Of a stretch of DNA of 64,000 nt, positions 16,118 through 59,574 are shown one piece after another. Source of the DNA: a virus; the IMG/VR virus record IMGVR_UViG_3300046321_000098, positions 18,012 to 82,011 of that record. One strand, 5' to 3'. Position 1 is the first letter of the stretch. Each line of letters opens with the position of its first letter. The notes beneath the pieces are model-generated. The model was not told the DNA's origin. It did not search any database and saw nothing but the letters and a program-made list of their open reading frames with translations. A program made the translations under genes and the position numbers.

Positions 16118-19100
16118 TGATTTTAAACGGATGGTGCTTTGACTGTGAAGCAGATAATTTATACCTTCAAGCTAAGAAAATTTGGTACATCCGTCTTAAA
16201 TCCTTAGACGGAACCCGTAGCCTAGCACTGCACCCTTTCAGGTCTTCCAAGGATGAAATCTACAATCAATTTATGGAATGGGTGGACTCTTTTGAAGACG
16301 GTGCTCACGTTGTATTCTTTAACGGACTTGGTTATGACTTATGGCTTATTTGGAAACTGCTAGATATTCAACCTCGTGTTGGGAAGCAAGGTAAGGACTG
16401 GATTGAGGACAAGCACGTCCAATTCATCGACGGTTATGTGCTGAGCATGTACCTCAACCCAAACAACCCTAGGCACTCCCTAGGTGCCCTATCAGGTTCT
16501 GAAAGTGATGATGGTAAGATTGATTACCGTAACAGTCTAATCAAGGCTGGTGCGATGACGGGCTTAGAGCCAAAAGGTCACGAGTTCTCGTTCTACCACC
16601 CTCTCACAGAGCCGTACTGTGACCGAGACGTTGATGCTACCATTCGTGTTGTAAAAGACTTATGGAAGCAGGCTCAAGGTATGTACGGTGAATCATGGCT
16701 TCATCCTAGCTTTCGACAGATGCAAAAAGATTACTGGCTGTACAGCGCACAAGCCTACACTGGTGTCAAATTTGATATAAACAAGGCTAAGGAATTAGTC
16801 ATCCATATCGAACAAGAAATGAAGGTACTTAAAGACTACGTAGACCCGTTACTACCATCCAGACCACTGAAGACTGCTGAGTTGAGTTACTACAAGCAAC
16901 CAGCGAAGCCTTTCTCCAAGTCAGGTGAAATATCGTCAAGCATGGAGAAGTTCTTAGTTAAGCACAACGCAACATTAGTTGACCGAATCATTACAGCTTA
17001 TGGCGAGTCCGTGCCTGTTGAGTCCAACGCAGTTTTACCTGTTAAGCTTCCGATGGAAATTGACGACAACGTAGAATTGAAGCAATACTTCCTAGATAAC
17101 GGGTGGATACCTAGTGATGATTACTGGAATCATAAAAAAGGTACTGACGGTAAACCAGAGCGAGATGCGAACAATAAGTTTACTAGAACTACTCCTAAAA
17201 TCAATCACGCTGGAAAAATTTGCCCTAATTTACTAAAGCTTGATGGGGACGTGCCGAAGAAAGTTGTTAAGTTTCTAAGCTACCGAAACCGATTAGGTGT
17301 TGTCACTGGTTGGTTGAACAACTGGAGACTTGAGTTTGATGGTAGACTCAGTGCTGAGATTTCAGGCTATGCTCCAACCTCAAGGGTTAAGCATAAGTTA
17401 GTTGTCAATGTACCAAAGGCTGCAGATGATGTGTTGCTTGGTCACGAGATGAGGGAGTTATTCTGTGTAGATAAGGGTAACTGGTACATTGGAACAGACG
17501 CTTCTGCTCTTGAAAATCGTACCCTTGCTGGGTACACCTACAAGTACGACAACGGGGAGTTTGCAAGAGTTCAATTAGAGGGTGACCCACATTGCTACTC
17601 AGAAGATACTGAGATTTTAACACCTAATGGTTGGTCTACTTTTGGTAATCTAACTAAAGGGGAGAAGGTTGCACAGTGGGATAACGGTGAGATTTCATTT
17701 GTTAAGCCAAGCCGTGTTATCTGGCAAGATTACGAAGGAGAAATGGTAAGTCTATCAGGTATGGCTGTTGATTTCCTTGTCACACCTAATCATAGAGTAC
17801 TTGTAACAAACGTAAAAAGCGGGAAAAGCAAGGTAAAACTAGCACATACACTGCACAATCGAAACTCTAATTGGAGATTGCCCACTCACGGATTAACAAC
17901 CTCTAAGGGTCTAGAACTGTCGAACGATGAAATCAGATTTATTGTTGCTCTACAAGCTGACGGTAGTATGAGTAAAACTGCTTTCAGGTTCGAGTTTGTA
18001 AAAGATAGGAAAATAGTTAGGATGCGGAATATTCTGTGCAACTTAGGTATACCTTATACAGAGTCCACTGGTAAAAGTAATACAACTACTCGCTTTTACG
18101 TGAAGCATGTTGACGCAGGTTTTGTGTTCAAGGGTATAACTATTAATAAAGTATTCTCTAACTTGTTGCTAGGAATGTCTCTAATGCAGTGTGAGACCTT
18201 CATCGAGGAGATTAGGCACTGGGACGGTACTACACTGAGAAGTGGTGACACCGTTTTAGATACGACCTGCGAGGAGAGCTGTGACATGGTTGCAACTATT
18301 GCAGCCCTAGTGGGTAGAAAATCGCGCAGGTCTGTGTTTGACAAACGAGGTGGTTTTGGTGACTGTACAATTCATAGGTGTTATATCTCTAAGGACAGTT
18401 CTTCGATAGGTGCTGCTGTACTTGGAACAAGTATAAAAGCAGTTGAGTATAAGGGTAAGATTGGTTGTGTCAGTGTTCCAAGTACATTCGTGGTTGTGAG
18501 GAGGAATGGTAAAATTCTAATCTCTGGTAATACTTTCAATGCTTTTGCCTTCTTCCCTCACTTGTTGAAGAAGTTTGATACTGATAACCAAGAGAATAAA
18601 GAGAACCCTGAGTTCAAACCTTGGCGAAACAAGGCTAAGACTGGTGCATACCTACTAGCCTTTGGTGGTGGCGCACCTAAGCTTGCCTCAAGCCTCGGAT
18701 TATCTAAATCCGATGGTCAAGCTGCTTTTAATAACTACTGGGAGAAGAATAAAGGTCTTGGGTTACTGAAGAAAGCAGTAGAGGGTTACTACGACACTAC
18801 AGGGAATAAGAAATACATTCCTGCAATTGATGGTAGGATTGTTTCGGTACGAGGTAAAAATGTTTTACTATCCTGCCTTGGGCAAGGATGTGGAGCAATT
18901 GCTATGTCCTATGCAGGTTGCTTAATGGATAATTGGCTAGGAGACTTCTACCTCGACGAATTAGGCAGACCTTACTACGATGTTGATGGATACAAGATAA
19001 GACGTATATCCTTCTTCCACGACGAATATTCTTGGGAAGTTGAAGACGGCGCACAAGACAGGATTAGGGAGTTAAGTGTAAAAGGTATTGTTAAGGCTGG

Positions 19101-27466: not shown

Positions 27467-28129
27467 TTGGAATTTATTAAAGCAAAAATAATTGGTTATA
27501 CCCAACCATCAGAGGAGTTCAAAGACTCCTTCTCAAACCTAAAAGAATTGGTTGCATACTGTAGCCGTGTATCTAACCCAAGTAATCAGTTCAATAATGA
27601 CACTGCAGATAAGTTAATTAATTACTTGGTTAAGAATAAACACTGGTCACCATTAGAAATGTGTAGTTTGACTTTAGAACTGGAATGCCCACGAGACATT
27701 GCACGACAGCTTTTACGTCACCGTTCATTTAGTTTTCAGGAGTTTAGTCAAAGATATGCAGACCCTACTAAAGATATGCACTTCATTCTCCGTGAAGCAC
27801 GTCTACAGGACTCTAAGAACCGTCAGAACAGTATTGAATCCAGTGATAGAGAACTTCAAAACCTTTGGGAAGAAAAGCAGCAAGAGGTTATTCATGCGGC
27901 TAAGGAAGCCTACGAGTGGGCTGTGATCAACGGTATTGCAAAAGAACAAGCTCGTGTAGTTCTTCCAGAGGGCAACACTATGTCCCGATTATATGTACAA
28001 GGTACTTTAAGATCTTGGATTCATTATATTGAAGTGCGTAAAGATATTAGCACACAGAAAGAACACAGAGAACTTGCACTAAAGATAGCTGAAGTAATAT
28101 CTAGAGTATTTAGTTTAAGTAATCTGTAA
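27467..28129 (+). CDS. thyX: Flavin-dependent thymidylate synthase ThyX
   Basis: 220 residues, TTG start with RBS gaaaggaaataaa. The ThyX signature RHRSFSFQEFSQRY lies at residues about 84-97 (RHRxxSxQxxSxR). PLEMCSLTLELECPRDIARQ and EQARVVLPEGNTMSRLYVQG agree with the family. Makes dTMP from dUMP using FAD and methylene-THF. Length is normal. The end overlaps a palindromic operator at 28125. Confidence 0.95.
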   Translation: MEFIKAKIIGYTQPSEEFKDSFSNLKELVAYCSRVSNPSNQFNNDTADKLINYLVKNKHWSPLEMCSLTLELECPRDIARQLLRHRSFSFQEFSQRYADPTKDMHFILREARLQDSKNRQNSIESSDRELQNLWEEKQQEVIHAAKEAYEWAVINGIAKEQARVVLPEGNTMSRLYVQGTLRSWIHYIEVRKDISTQKEHRELALKIAEVISRVFSLSNL

Positions 28130-28154
28130 CAATTGTTACAAAACGTGGTATAAT
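28125..28154 (+). promoter_or_regulatory. Palindromic operator and -10 before the nrdBA operon
   Basis: TGTAACAATTGTTACA (28125-28140) is a perfect 16-bp palindrome made of the GTAAC/GTTAC pentamers that recur in this genome. TATAAT follows at 28149-28154, then caggagaatt before ATG 28181. Here the operator overlaps the -35 position, suggesting direct control of ribonucleotide reductase expression. Confidence 0.7.
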
Positions 28155-32484: not shown

Positions 32485-32913
32485 ATGAAGCAAAAGTACA
32501 AAACCGCGTACTTAGACATGGCTGAGCGATTCGGTCAGACATCAGAAGCTACACGCCTTAAAGTTGGTGCTCTGATTATCAGGGACGATACCATCATCGC
32601 TCAGGGTGTAAATGGAACTCCAAGGGGTTGGTTGACAAATTTGTGCGAGGACGCAGACAGTAGTACCAACAGTGTAGTACGACACGCTGAAGTAAACGCT
32701 TTAAACAAGCTCAGACGCTCTAACAGCTCATCAAATGGTGCTACTATGTTCTGCAGTCACGCTTGCTGCTTACCGTGTGCTATAGAGCTTGTGGATGCTG
32801 GTATCAAGGAATTCTATTTCAAGCACGAATACAGGGACATGAGTGGATTGGATTATTTAGAGTCTAAAGGTGTCAAAGTTGAATGGCTAGACCAAGAGTG
32901 TAAATCTTTGTAA
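32485..32913 (+). CDS. dCMP/deoxycytidylate deaminase
   Basis: 142 residues. Zinc deaminase motifs: VVRHAEVNALNKL (HAE, ligand His and catalytic Glu) and HACCLPCAIELVDAGI (CxxC ligands). TRLKVGALIIRDDTIIAQG and NGTPRG match dCMP deaminases. Provides dUMP for ThyX, closing the dTMP route in this block. Confidence 0.88.
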   Translation: MKQKYKTAYLDMAERFGQTSEATRLKVGALIIRDDTIIAQGVNGTPRGWLTNLCEDADSSTNSVVRHAEVNALNKLRRSNSSSNGATMFCSHACCLPCAIELVDAGIKEFYFKHEYRDMSGLDYLESKGVKVEWLDQECKSL

Positions 32914-32940
32914 AATCGGCACAACCTTTGGATTTCTGTG

Positions 32941-32974
32941 TATAATCTACGTATCTAAACAAAAGGGAACGAAC
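32941..32974 (+). promoter_or_regulatory. -10 element and leader before the SprT gene
   Basis: TATAAT at 32941, preceded by TTCTGTG, then ATCTAAACAAAAGGGAAC. No clear -35. The leader belongs to the recurrent ATCTAAACAAAAGGAG type. Confidence 0.5.
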
Positions 32975-37832: not shown

Positions 37833-38004
37833 GTCCTTTCATTTAACCCCCCTTGAACTTGCAGAGGTCAACGAGCTTTGTGACTTTTATAGTGTGAACA
37901 ACCTTTACGATTTAATTCATACTCAGCAAACACAGATTGAGAGACTTCAAGAAAAACTCAACGAGTATCAGGTTCGTTATTCATCTAAAGTTAGGTACGC
38001 CTAG
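37825..38004 (+). CDS. Hypothetical coiled-coil protein, 59 aa
   Basis: ATG 37825 overlapping the previous stop by 8 nt. Helix HTQQTQIERLQEKLNEYQ. Unrecognised. Confidence 0.55.
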   Translation: MLESFHLTPLELAEVNELCDFYSVNNLYDLIHTQQTQIERLQEKLNEYQVRYSSKVRYA

Positions 38005-38005
38005 G

Positions 38006-38416
38006 ATGAGCATAGAAAAGACTAAGCTTCGTCTCAAAGACTTGGTACGCTTGACGGCAGATGAGTGCGATTATCACATTTACGAAGTTGAAGATGTACT
38101 TTCTACGTTTATAAGCGTATTACGCCACGAGTTGTACAAAGGGAACAGTGTGCTTATTGAAAAATTATGCAAGTTGCAAATTTACAAGCCTAAACCAAGG
38201 CGGCTTTACAACTTCAAGACAAAACGCTTGAAACTGTCACCGTCTCACCCAAAGCTTAAAGTCACACCAACTATAGGCTTACTTGACTATATACGTGAAC
38301 AAGAGGGTACTGGACTTGAAGTTAAAAAAGACACAGCTAACAAACGTCTTCAACACCATCAACACACCGAACAAGGAAAATATTATGAGCAAAACAAACC
38401 GCAACCAGTTCAGTAA
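38006..38416 (+). CDS. HU/IHF-like DNA-binding protein (divergent)
   Basis: 136 residues from ATG 38006. VEDVLSTFISVLRHELYKGNSVLIEKL followed by a basic LQIYKPKPRRLYNFKTKRLK arm and HPKLKVTPTIGLL follows the HU/IHF fold order (helices, beta arm, final F/L-x-P-S helix). A His/Gln-rich tail is appended. Probable nucleoid-type architectural protein; family assignment tentative. Confidence 0.5.
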   Translation: MSIEKTKLRLKDLVRLTADECDYHIYEVEDVLSTFISVLRHELYKGNSVLIEKLCKLQIYKPKPRRLYNFKTKRLKLSPSHPKLKVTPTIGLLDYIREQEGTGLEVKKDTANKRLQHHQHTEQGKYYEQNKPQPVQ

Positions 38417-38552
38417 GAAGAGTTCCCAGAACCAGTATGATACTCAAGAATGGGACGAGGAAAACTTGAATTATCTTGAAGACATTTCATCTGAATTTGG
38501 AAATCTTCCTCAGCTTCAGAGGTGGTCAATGAGTAGTGATGGAGAAGAGTAA
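38385..38552 (+). CDS. Hypothetical acidic protein, 55 aa
   Basis: MSKTNRNQFSKKSSQNQYD onward, RBS acaagga. N-terminus basic, C-terminus acidic. The stop overlaps a phased operator. Confidence 0.5.
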   Translation: MSKTNRNQFSKKSSQNQYDTQEWDEENLNYLEDISSEFGNLPQLQRWSMSSDGEE

Positions 38553-38596
38553 CAATTTGTAACAGTGCTTGCTTGGTTAAATATTTGATGTAGAAT
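38549..38596 (+). promoter_or_regulatory. Phased GTAAC pair in 10-bp register with a promoter
   Basis: GTAAC at 38549, GTAAC at 38559 and TTGCTT at 38569 are exactly 10 bp apart. A 16-bp spacer and TAGAAT (38591-38596) follow, 13 bp before the tRNA-like gene. The same register is found at 45101 and, in reverse, at 59574. Confidence 0.75.
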
Positions 38597-44527: not shown

Positions 44528-44683
44528 TTAATTAATCAAAGTAGCTGAAATCGAGTGTATCCATTTGTTACCCTCTAAGAATAAAAGAGAACCGTTGGAA
44601 CTGACACGGAGGATTTTACCCGTTTTTAATTCGCCATATGAAATATATTGCACAGTATCCCCTATTTGAAATAATGCCCTCAT
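44528..44683 (-). CDS. Hypothetical KOW-like small protein, 51 aa
   Basis: MRALFQIGDTVQYISYGELK then TGKILRVSSNGSLLFLEGNK: a beta-rich protein of KOW/SH3-like character. Its ATG overlaps the stop of the upstream gene (ATGA). Lies between forward units, with its own promoter and terminator. Function unknown. Confidence 0.65.
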   Translation of the reverse strand: MRALFQIGDTVQYISYGELKTGKILRVSSNGSLLFLEGNKWIHSISATLIN

Positions 44684-44835
44684 TTTTCAGTTAATCCTAG
44701 ACATCTGGCTAATTGGGTTAATGTAGTATTAATCGTTTCACAATTTTTGAACTGTATTTGTACACTATCAGAGTGGACATTTGTTGTATTGACTGTTTCA
44801 GCATCTGCAAAATATTGAGTATTAGTTTGCCCCAT
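44680..44835 (-). CDS. Hypothetical protein, 51 aa
   Basis: MGQTNTQYFADAETVNTTNV then FKNCETINTTLTQLARCLGL. Strong RBS aggggggatc. First gene of a two-gene reverse operon whose promoter lies beside the operator array. Could be regulatory given its place; no HTH is visible. Confidence 0.6.
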   Translation of the reverse strand: MGQTNTQYFADAETVNTTNVHSDSVQIQFKNCETINTTLTQLARCLGLTEK

Positions 44836-44903
44836 AATGATCCCCCCTATGCCTGTAATGTGCTAATCAACTACTGACTAGCTTTCAATATTACATAAGT
44901 AAG

Positions 44904-44932
44904 ATTATACACATAAAGCAAGTAATGCAATA
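44904..44932 (-). promoter_or_regulatory. Reverse promoter for the 44.5-44.8 kb operon
   Basis: On the reverse strand TATAAT (44909-44904) follows TATTGC at 17 bp. A phased pair GTAAC (44950) / GTAAT (44960), forward-strand reading, lies just upstream. Confidence 0.55.
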
Positions 44933-44939
44933 AAATAAT

Positions 44940-45560
44940 TATTTGAATTGTAACAATCTGTAATGATTGTAGCATAAAACCAACACGTCAAAACGGCTTA
45001 CAATGTGTTATTTTAGAGATTTAATACTAGGGTAGCCAAACTTAGAATAATCGCTCTAAGGACTTATAAATTGAATAGCTGTAACAAAGTACTTTAATTT
45101 GTAACTATTTGTAATATTACTTGACACCTTAGAATTTATGTGCTAGTCGGTTACTTATTGTTACAACTTATTTATTGACAAACTGCAGATAATGTACTAA
45201 TAAAATATATTACAAACAGTTACACCTGAAACCATTGACAACCCTTTGATTTTATGCTAGCAAGTCTATTACATTTAGTAACAATATTAATTTGACAGTA
45301 TTAAAATTTTGTGCTGCAGCTCTGATATATGTTCTAATTGCCTAGCATAAAATACAATTTTAGGTGTAACAAGGTGTAATAATTCGTTGTTTATTAGAGA
45401 CAAAACGCACAGAATCGCTCAGATAAATTTTTTGATACTAGGACAGCTTGAACGTCAAATAATCTGTTTAAATCGCCCTATTCCATAATCTGTAACATTA
45501 GACAGCTAATTTGTAACAATTCAATGTATTACCTTGATTAATGAAATATTAACGTATTTA
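44940..45560. promoter_or_regulatory. Operator-promoter array in the 0.78-kb divergent control region
   Basis: No gene is visible between 44836 and 45614. Pentamers GTAAC/GTTAC or one-base variants occur at 44950/44960, 45081, 45101/45111, 45150/45160, 45209/45219, 45268/45278, 45366/45376, 45492 and 45513. All slashed pairs are 10 bp apart. Four are followed by TTGACA at 45121, 45175, 45235 and 45292, then TGTGCTAG-like -10 regions (best -10: TAATAA at 45198). The unit recurs every 54-60 bp. Interpreted as a tandem promoter/operator bank controlled by one regulator; an iteron-like origin is the alternative. Confidence 0.8.
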
Positions 45561-45614
45561 AGAACATAATTTGGTTGTGCCTGATTTTAAGCACTAACTT
45601 ATAAAGGTTTAAAA

Positions 45615-45793: not shown

Positions 45794-45841
45794 GTAAAAC
45801 ATTGTAACGGTCAACAAAAATAGCCAATTTACAGATACAAT
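45794..45841 (+). promoter_or_regulatory. Phased GTAAA/GTAAC pair with -10
   Basis: GTAAA (45794) and GTAAC (45804) 10 bp apart, TACAAT at 45836. The -35 position (45813) is non-consensus. Leader ctaaacatcaacaaaacggg. Confidence 0.6.
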
Positions 45842-45869: not shown

Positions 45870-46037
45870 ATGCACAATCGTTCAGAGTTTACAGCAAGTC
45901 AACAATTGCAAGCTACAATCAAGCATCATAATTTCAAGGTGTCAAAAAATGAAACTAAGCCGTCAATTGTAGCATGGTTCATTTTGATTTTTGGCGCGGT
46001 TGGGTATTTATTGTCACTTGCTTATTTTGCTAACTAA
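45870..46037 (+). CDS. Small membrane protein, 55 aa
   Basis: MHNRSEFTASQQLQATIKHH then a membrane span (IVAWFILIFGAVGYLLSLAY). RBS cgggaaac. Stop overlaps the next ATG. Confidence 0.6.
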   Translation: MHNRSEFTASQQLQATIKHHNFKVSKNETKPSIVAWFILIFGAVGYLLSLAYFAN

Positions 46038-56315: not shown

Positions 56316-56645
56316 TCATACTTCCACCTCGTAGATACGAGGCGCAGCGTCTAGCCATTGTTTGAAAAACGAATAGGCTTCTACATCTAACTGAAGTACT
56401 TTTCCCTCTGAGTCCCAAACGCGCAGTTTGTTGTTAGCAGTAACCCATGTGCGGGTGTGTACTTTCTTTGTCTCAGGTTTGATCTTAAAAGAATCAGGGT
56501 GAGCTATAACAGTAGTCATTAACGCTTTCAGAGTACCGTCCATGCCAGAATAGCAACCACTAAAGTGGTGCACTGTCGGTTGTAAGGTTTTACCATCGAG
56601 GTAAGCCTTAATCAACTCCACGATTTTATCATTTTTGTTTTGCAT
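56316..56645 (-). CDS. Hypothetical protein, 109 aa
   Basis: ATG overlaps the upstream stop (TAATG). LIKAYLDGKTLQPTVHHFSG and TRTWVTANNKLRVWDSEGK. Unrecognised. Confidence 0.6.
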   Translation of the reverse strand: MQNKNDKIVELIKAYLDGKTLQPTVHHFSGCYSGMDGTLKALMTTVIAHPDSFKIKPETKKVHTRTWVTANNKLRVWDSEGKVLQLDVEAYSFFKQWLDAAPRIYEVEV

Positions 56646-56839: not shown

Positions 56840-56886
56840 ATTATACCAGAAAAAGCAGCTATTACTGCGTTGTTACAAAGATTTAC
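56840..56886 (-). promoter_or_regulatory. Reverse promoter with phased GTAAA/GTAAC
   Basis: Reverse TATAAT (56845-56840). In reverse, GTAAA (56886) and GTAAC (56876) are 10 bp apart, with GTAAT 11 bp further on. The -35 is poor. Confidence 0.6.
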
Positions 56887-57542: not shown

Positions 57543-57589
57543 ATTGTACACTAGATTTCTATACTGTGCTGGACTTTACAAATTATTAC
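57543..57589 (-). promoter_or_regulatory. Reverse promoter with phased GTAAT/GTAAA
   Basis: Reverse TACAAT (57548-57543); GTAAT (57589) and GTAAA (57579) 10 bp apart upstream. -35 non-consensus. Confidence 0.55.
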
Positions 57590-59188: not shown

Positions 59189-59500
59189 TTAGTGCAAACT
59201 ATCTTCTACGCGGAAATATAATTCCTCGCCACTATCGAGACTGAATAATCTAAACTCCGTCAAATCCAAAGCAGCAATAATCCGTATAGCAATTTCAAAC
59301 GTACTGTATCTGCCCAACTCTCTTGGTTCACAAGCCGCCCCACTTGGTACAATAACAACAACTTGTTCATTAGACGGTGTAAAGCTGTCCATACTGCCAA
59401 CAGTGAACAATCGTGCAACTTTTTGTTCGCTGGTAAAACGTGATTGGTTAGCTGGCATGTGTGCTTCGTTTAGTGCAGGTTCAGGGTGTAATTGATTCAT
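59189..59500 (-). CDS. Hypothetical protein, 103 aa
   Basis: NEQVVVIVPSGAACEPRELG then FEIAIRIIAALDLTEFRLFS. First gene behind the phased promoter at 59527. Unrecognised. Confidence 0.6.
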   Translation of the reverse strand: MNQLHPEPALNEAHMPANQSRFTSEQKVARLFTVGSMDSFTPSNEQVVVIVPSGAACEPRELGRYSTFEIAIRIIAALDLTEFRLFSLDSGEELYFRVEDSLH

Positions 59501-59526: not shown

Positions 59527-59574
59527 ATTATAGCACTCACCTATTAAAAAGCAAGTGCTGTTACACAATGTTAC
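59527..59574 (-). promoter_or_regulatory. Reverse promoter, phased GTAAC pair in register
   Basis: Reverse reading: GTAAC (59574), GTAAC (59564) and TTGCTT (59554) exactly 10 bp apart, a 16-bp spacer, TATAAT (59532-59527), then AAGTTTTTAACAAAAGGAG. This is the same architecture as 38549-38596. Confidence 0.8.

Follow-up and report, generated by a model that had tools for sequence, protein, structure and literature searches.

An uncultured phage distantly related to the Ounavirinae and PAK_P1-type phages carries, in one non-coding region, an array of four tandem promoter-like units whose paired operator recurs at single promoters elsewhere in its genome. The array is real, and it belongs to a promoter regulon that spans the phage genome. 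On the evidence presented below, it probably consists of four rightward sigma-70 promoters, arranged as a bank, that would need an activator binding to head-to-tail 10-bp repeats. The 64,000-nt stretch analysed here (hereafter the window, to which the coordinates refer) corresponds to positions 18,012–82,011 of the 82,011-bp record IMGVR_UViG_3300046321_000098. The genome encodes a DNA polymerase, a primase-helicase, a ribonucleotide reductase, an exonuclease, and PhoH-like and ClpP-like proteins, with named homologues in Ounavirinae phage M1, Acinetobacter phage BS46, and Pseudomonas phages such as PaoP5. Based on this gene set and on these homologues, we take the phage to be placed, distantly, near the Felix O1/PAK_P1-type myoviruses. 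Assignment of a host through the ribonucleotide reductase was abandoned, the single match, to an Anaerolineae MAG, being uninformative.

The array lies in a 779-bp regulatory hub (Table 1) between two leftward ORFs (44528–44835) and a rightward run of small, unannotated genes (from 45615), which we infer to be early or middle genes. A structured RNA downstream of the array was considered and rejected: folding was no better than that of shuffled sequences (z = +1.29), and an Rfam search of the sequence returned tRNAs and no other structured RNA.

The sequence-only reading had described four tandem units with perfect TTGACA hexamers, mostly poor -10s, and steps of 54–60 bp, and all of its hexamers and spacers are as described. 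The exact TTGACA hexamers succeed one another at steps of 54, 60, and 57 bp; each is followed by a 17-bp spacer and a non-consensus hexamer at the -10 position, preceded in units 1 to 4 by TGTGC, TGTAC, TATGC, and TGTGC, respectively. A generic promoter scan did not list the units, because their -10s fail. Upstream of each TTGACA stands a GTAAC/GTTAC pair. The phased pentamer pair that had been attributed to every unit is present in units 1–3, where the two pentamers have the same orientation and a step of exactly 10 bp, but unit 4 is an exception, its TTAC at 45269 and GTAAC at 45278 being inverted with a 9-bp step. The arrangement exceeds chance: four TTGACA hexamers within 175 bp of one strand were produced by none of 200 whole-genome shuffles and none of 2000 shuffles of the 779-bp stretch, which also contains 5 pairs with a 10-bp step against 0.21 expected (0 of 2000 local shuffles).

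Table 1. Features of the regulatory hub and single promoters sharing the paired operator (window coordinates).
Feature	Position	Strand	Details
Non-coding regulatory hub, 779 bp	44836..45614	.	No ORF of at least 40 aa crossing; blocks conserved in two relatives
Pair GTAAC/GTAA upstream of array	44950..44963	.	40 bp upstream of leftward TATAAT (44904-44909, minus)
Array unit 1	45100..45149	+	Pair TGTAAC/TGTAA 45100-45114; TTGACA 45121-45126; 17-bp spacer; -10 position TAGTCG 45144-45149
Array unit 2	45151..45203	+	Pair TTAC/TTAC 45151-45164; TTGACA 45175-45180; -10 position TAATAA 45198-45203
Array unit 3	45210..45263	+	Pair TTAC/TTAC 45210-45223; TTGACA 45235-45240; -10 position TAGCAA 45258-45263
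Array unit 4	45269..45320	+	Irregular inverted pair TTAC/GTAAC 45269-45282; TTGACA 45292-45297; -10 position TGCAGC 45315-45320
Downstream of array: pair GTAAC/GTAA and block of strong conservation ending TTAGAGACAAAACGC	45366..45420	+	Conserved in relatives
ATTAATG-N4-ATTAACG, 11-bp direct repeat	45537..45570	+	10 bp before -10-like CATAAT; conserved in both relatives
Single promoter, -10 TATAAT at 27 bp	32900..32946	+	Before SprT-like gene (32975); orthologous promoter G001 78346
Single promoter, -10 TAGAAT at 28 bp	38549..38596	+	Pair-to-minus-10 pattern
Single promoter, -10 TACAAT at 28 bp	45794..45841	+	Before small membrane-like protein gene 45870
Single promoter, -10 TATAAT at 27 bp	56840..56886	-	Before gene ending at 56645
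Single promoter, -10 TACAAT at 27 bp	57543..57589	-	Pair-to-minus-10 pattern
Single promoter, -10 TATAAT at 28 bp	59527..59574	-	Before gene 59189-59500; counterparts G001 58771, G008 15649

Conservation of the array is established in two uncultured relatives whose homologous region carries four units (L017/G008) and two units (G001), giving, together with the four of this phage, ten units for comparison. The -35 is TTGACA in eight of the ten, and TAGACA and TTGACT in the remaining two. The -10 positions read TAGGAA, TAATCT, TAGTCA, and TGCAGT in G008, and TAGGAA and TAGCTA in G001; the hexamer opens with TAG in about six or seven of the ten units and elsewhere with TAA or TGC; eight units lack the T at -7, and nine have a -10 score below 0 bits. 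The L017 counterpart of unit 4, whose -10 position is the TGCAGT, carries a regular pair. Since non-consensus -10s recur in the units of the relatives, the poor -10 is a kept feature; perfect TTGACA/TATAAT promoters are present elsewhere in these same phages. The forward-oriented array units of all three phages also share a 6-bp gap between the pair and the -35 (one of these -35s being TAGACA). No comparable array, and few 10-bp pairs, were seen in the regions of phages M1 and BS46 that were read, and none was found in L057, which looks unrelated apart from the query gene. A DNA-level search of 43.5–48.5 kb against the phage collection gave no match except a tRNA. G001 also has TGTAAC repeats densely packed with 10-bp phasing in a second run, about 0.8 kb from the array (L041, minus strand, about 12811–12720); the matching place in the present genome holds traces only.

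The presence of the paired operator throughout the genome, beyond the array, is a new finding. Same-orientation GTAA pairs with a 10-bp step number 23 in the 82-kb genome, against 4.2 expected from shuffles, and when the three phages are pooled this step accounts for 52 pairs, any other step from 5 to 31 accounting for 9–25. Thirty-nine pooled pairs, many of them orthologues and thus not independent, were picked by their flanking bases only and scanned downstream on the same strand for a -10 scoring 4.5 bits or more. The -10 lies at 28 bp in 8 pairs, at 27 bp in 3, and at 38 bp in 3, as against a mean of 0.5 per position. Neither the peak at 28 bp (0 of 500 flank shuffles) nor the 11 pairs of 39 with a -10 at 27–28 bp (0 of 500 shuffles) was matched by chance. 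For this genome alone and without the flank filter, 6 of the 23 pairs have a -10 at 27–28 bp (1 of 1000 shuffles). Matches to GTAA-N6-GTAA-N26-28-TANAAT number 6, 5, and 2 in the three phages; two of the five in G001 (67908 and 72675) seem incidental when the sequence is read. The 14 other records compared have none. In the forward array units, the distance from the pair to the -10 position is 29 bp, as against 27–28 bp at single promoters. Reverse-oriented pairs, including those of units 2 and 3, show variable distances (23–24, 32–34, and 40–44 bp) that are not significant in the same test, and therefore we make no claim of phasing there. The idea that all operator distances are strictly quantised in 10-bp steps was rejected, as it holds statistically for forward-oriented pairs only.

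The paired site of the array recurs at no fewer than six single promoters in other parts of this genome, and their fixed operator-to-minus-10 distance is established. One of them precedes the small membrane-like protein gene at 45870, which is conserved in both relatives. These promoters have good -10s (5.7–7.0 bits) and weak -35s, mostly of the TTGC type, which start 5–6 bp past the pair. The array has the opposite weakness: the -10 is poor, and TTGACA stands where most single promoters have their weak -35 (6 bp past the pair in the forward units). Since the array and the single promoters should both be weak alone, an activator is the best reading.

According to the proposed mechanism, the activator would bind two GTAAC-like half-sites head-to-tail, 10 bp apart and on one helix face, just upstream of the -35 (about -54 to -41 at single promoters), from where it could contact the adjacent RNA polymerase. 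The array units would be nearly silent until it is present, because their -10s are poor despite a perfect -35, and the single promoters would belong to the same regulon through the opposite defect (a mostly TTGC-type -35 with a good -10). Through its tandem layout, the array may drive the small genes from 45.6 kb onward cooperatively, in the manner of a switch, and the activator, whether phage- or host-encoded, would time phage gene expression. We infer the occupancy of the sites by a factor, and its activating effect, from sequence; activation is the likely outcome. What emerges is an exact promoter rule (GTAA-N6-GTAA, 27–28 bp, -10) and two complementary kinds of promoter weakness that a single activator could govern jointly, in a regulon defined phage-wide.

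Several other explanations were weighed against an activator-dependent bank. The units could be ordinary strong early promoters read by unmodified host polymerase and multiplied for strength, with pairs that are incidental or UP-like. The perfect TTGACA, the correct 17-bp spacer, and the TGN found in most units agree with this, but the T at -7 is missing in most units of phages that use TATAAT elsewhere, and the pairs are specific GTAAC repeats at a fixed place in many promoters rather than generic A/T tracts; this explanation appears quite unlikely. A reading of the pairs as repressor operators, and of the array as a cooperative repressor platform shutting off transcription, is also improbable. 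The half-sites are indeed near-palindromic, and a pair-like site at 28126–28139 precedes a TATAAT by 9 bp, so that a protein bound to it would obstruct polymerase. However, in the single promoters the pair lies upstream of the -35 at a fixed distance, a location that leaves the way free for polymerase and that activators typically occupy, and repression leaves the sequence weakness of both promoter types unexplained.

An iteron-like origin had been offered in the sequence-only reading beside activator-dependent promoters. The latter part has gained from the same pair being found at a fixed distance before single promoters in three phages, and from the conserved poor -10s; the former has gained no positive support. 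The array does occupy an A/T-rich non-coding stretch with repeated 10-bp-phased motifs, and long phased runs occur in G001, both at the array and a short way from it, which leaves room for an additional replication role. Nevertheless, most pairs stand singly before separate genes, the lone DnaA-like box (44905) is not conserved in the relatives, and the GC skew does not turn at 45 kb, the latter being weak evidence because skew follows gene direction here. An iteron-type origin to which the transcription motifs are secondary is thus very improbable. The least probable explanation, and an extremely unlikely one, holds that the units serve a phage-modified polymerase preferring the -10 TRTGCTAGNNA. 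It draws on the frequent TAG at the start of the -10 and on the repeated TRTGCTAG context; however, this context is combined with a proper -35 in the array only and forms no genome-wide class, and no phage sigma factor was recognised among the proteins scanned.

The putative activator-dependent promoters can be compared with several known systems. Lambda CII acts at direct repeats TTGC-N6-TTGC, which have a 10-bp period and flank the -35, and activates weak promoters. The phage operator resembles this arrangement as a direct repeat of 10-bp period at weak promoters, but its repeats lie upstream of the -35 and its half-site is GTAAC. Middle promoters of T4, which depend on a MotA box and AsiA, combine a good sigma-70 -10 and a weak or missing -35 with an added recognition box (PMC2988021). 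The single promoters described here similarly form a phage-wide class with a good -10, a weak -35, and an extra box. However, the MotA box is one site, centred at -30, that takes the place of the -35, whereas the present operator is paired and lies upstream of a -35 that is retained, and the excellent -10 is found at the single promoters and not in the array, which has the reverse weakness. The operator also resembles boxes of the OmpR family: that of CpxR is GTAAA-N5-GTAAA (PMC12802237, PMC9600279) and that of RstA is TACATNTNGTTACA (PMC13276309), both with two head-to-tail half-sites near the GTAAC-N5-GTAA of the phage. The geometry agrees with this family, the 10-bp step being enriched over all other steps between 5 and 31 and the half-site being GTAAC, GTAAT, or GTAAA. 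The differences are that the fifth base of the phage half-site is mostly C and not A as in CpxR, that the putative phage sites keep a fixed distance to the -10, and that the phage records lack an OmpR-type domain. A Bacillus SigX-like -35 reading of TGTAAC, mentioned in PMC12153292, was set aside because the sites are 10-bp pairs upstream of a sigma-70 -35 and -10.

As to the factor itself, no OmpR-type DNA-binding domain (PF00486) was found in records G000, G001, G008, and G006, so that it may come from the host or be a phage protein that escaped recognition. Family scans of further phage proteins returned HU-like and SprT-like proteins and no plausible specific activator. The HU/IHF-like DNA-binding protein (PF00216) is encoded at 37937–38416 and, in G001, is conserved beside an operator site.

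Beyond this clade, an IMG/VR scan with the full-length pattern gave matches in L061/G017 and L062/G018, which share almost no genes with this phage, and a looser pattern added L070/G019, with several clustered pairs. Against a half-turn control, the looser pattern was found in 8 contigs versus 4, with near-duplicates in both sets, a difference that is not significant; generality outside the clade is therefore only suggestive, a lead. No convincing shared activator gene was found among the unrelated pattern-bearing phages. A convergence of several unrelated phages on promoters tuned to a single OmpR-family regulator of the host (for example, an envelope-stress regulator), in which infection stress would be the trigger and the four-unit bank the main switch, seems rather unlikely. 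Should the activator prove to be a host regulator, the phage would be reading a host stress pathway to set the timing of its genes. In L070 and L061 the paired site occurs in clusters, and a -10 follows some of the sites at exactly 28 bp.

Other elements of the hub and its surroundings are also worth recording. The 40-bp distance between the pair upstream of the array and its leftward TATAAT is the same in G001, as read by eye. The block GTGTAACAAGRTGYAAYAWTTYGTTGTWTWTTAGAGACAAAACGC (45366–45420; about 1088–1133 in L017) is the most conserved non-coding stretch across the three phages, and an IMG/VR pattern scan for it gave matches in the two relatives only. At 45342–45353, CTAGCATAAAAT is the exact 12-bp inverse of the -10 region of unit 3 (45249–45260) and yields a leftward TATGCTAG element, which has no equivalent at the matching place in the relatives. 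Outside the hub, at 28126–28148, GTAACAATTGTTAC is an inverted version of the site that overlaps the -35 position; a protein bound there would repress rather than activate. Finally, the ATTAATG-N4-ATTAACG repeat may be a second, different activator-type site before the first rightward genes.
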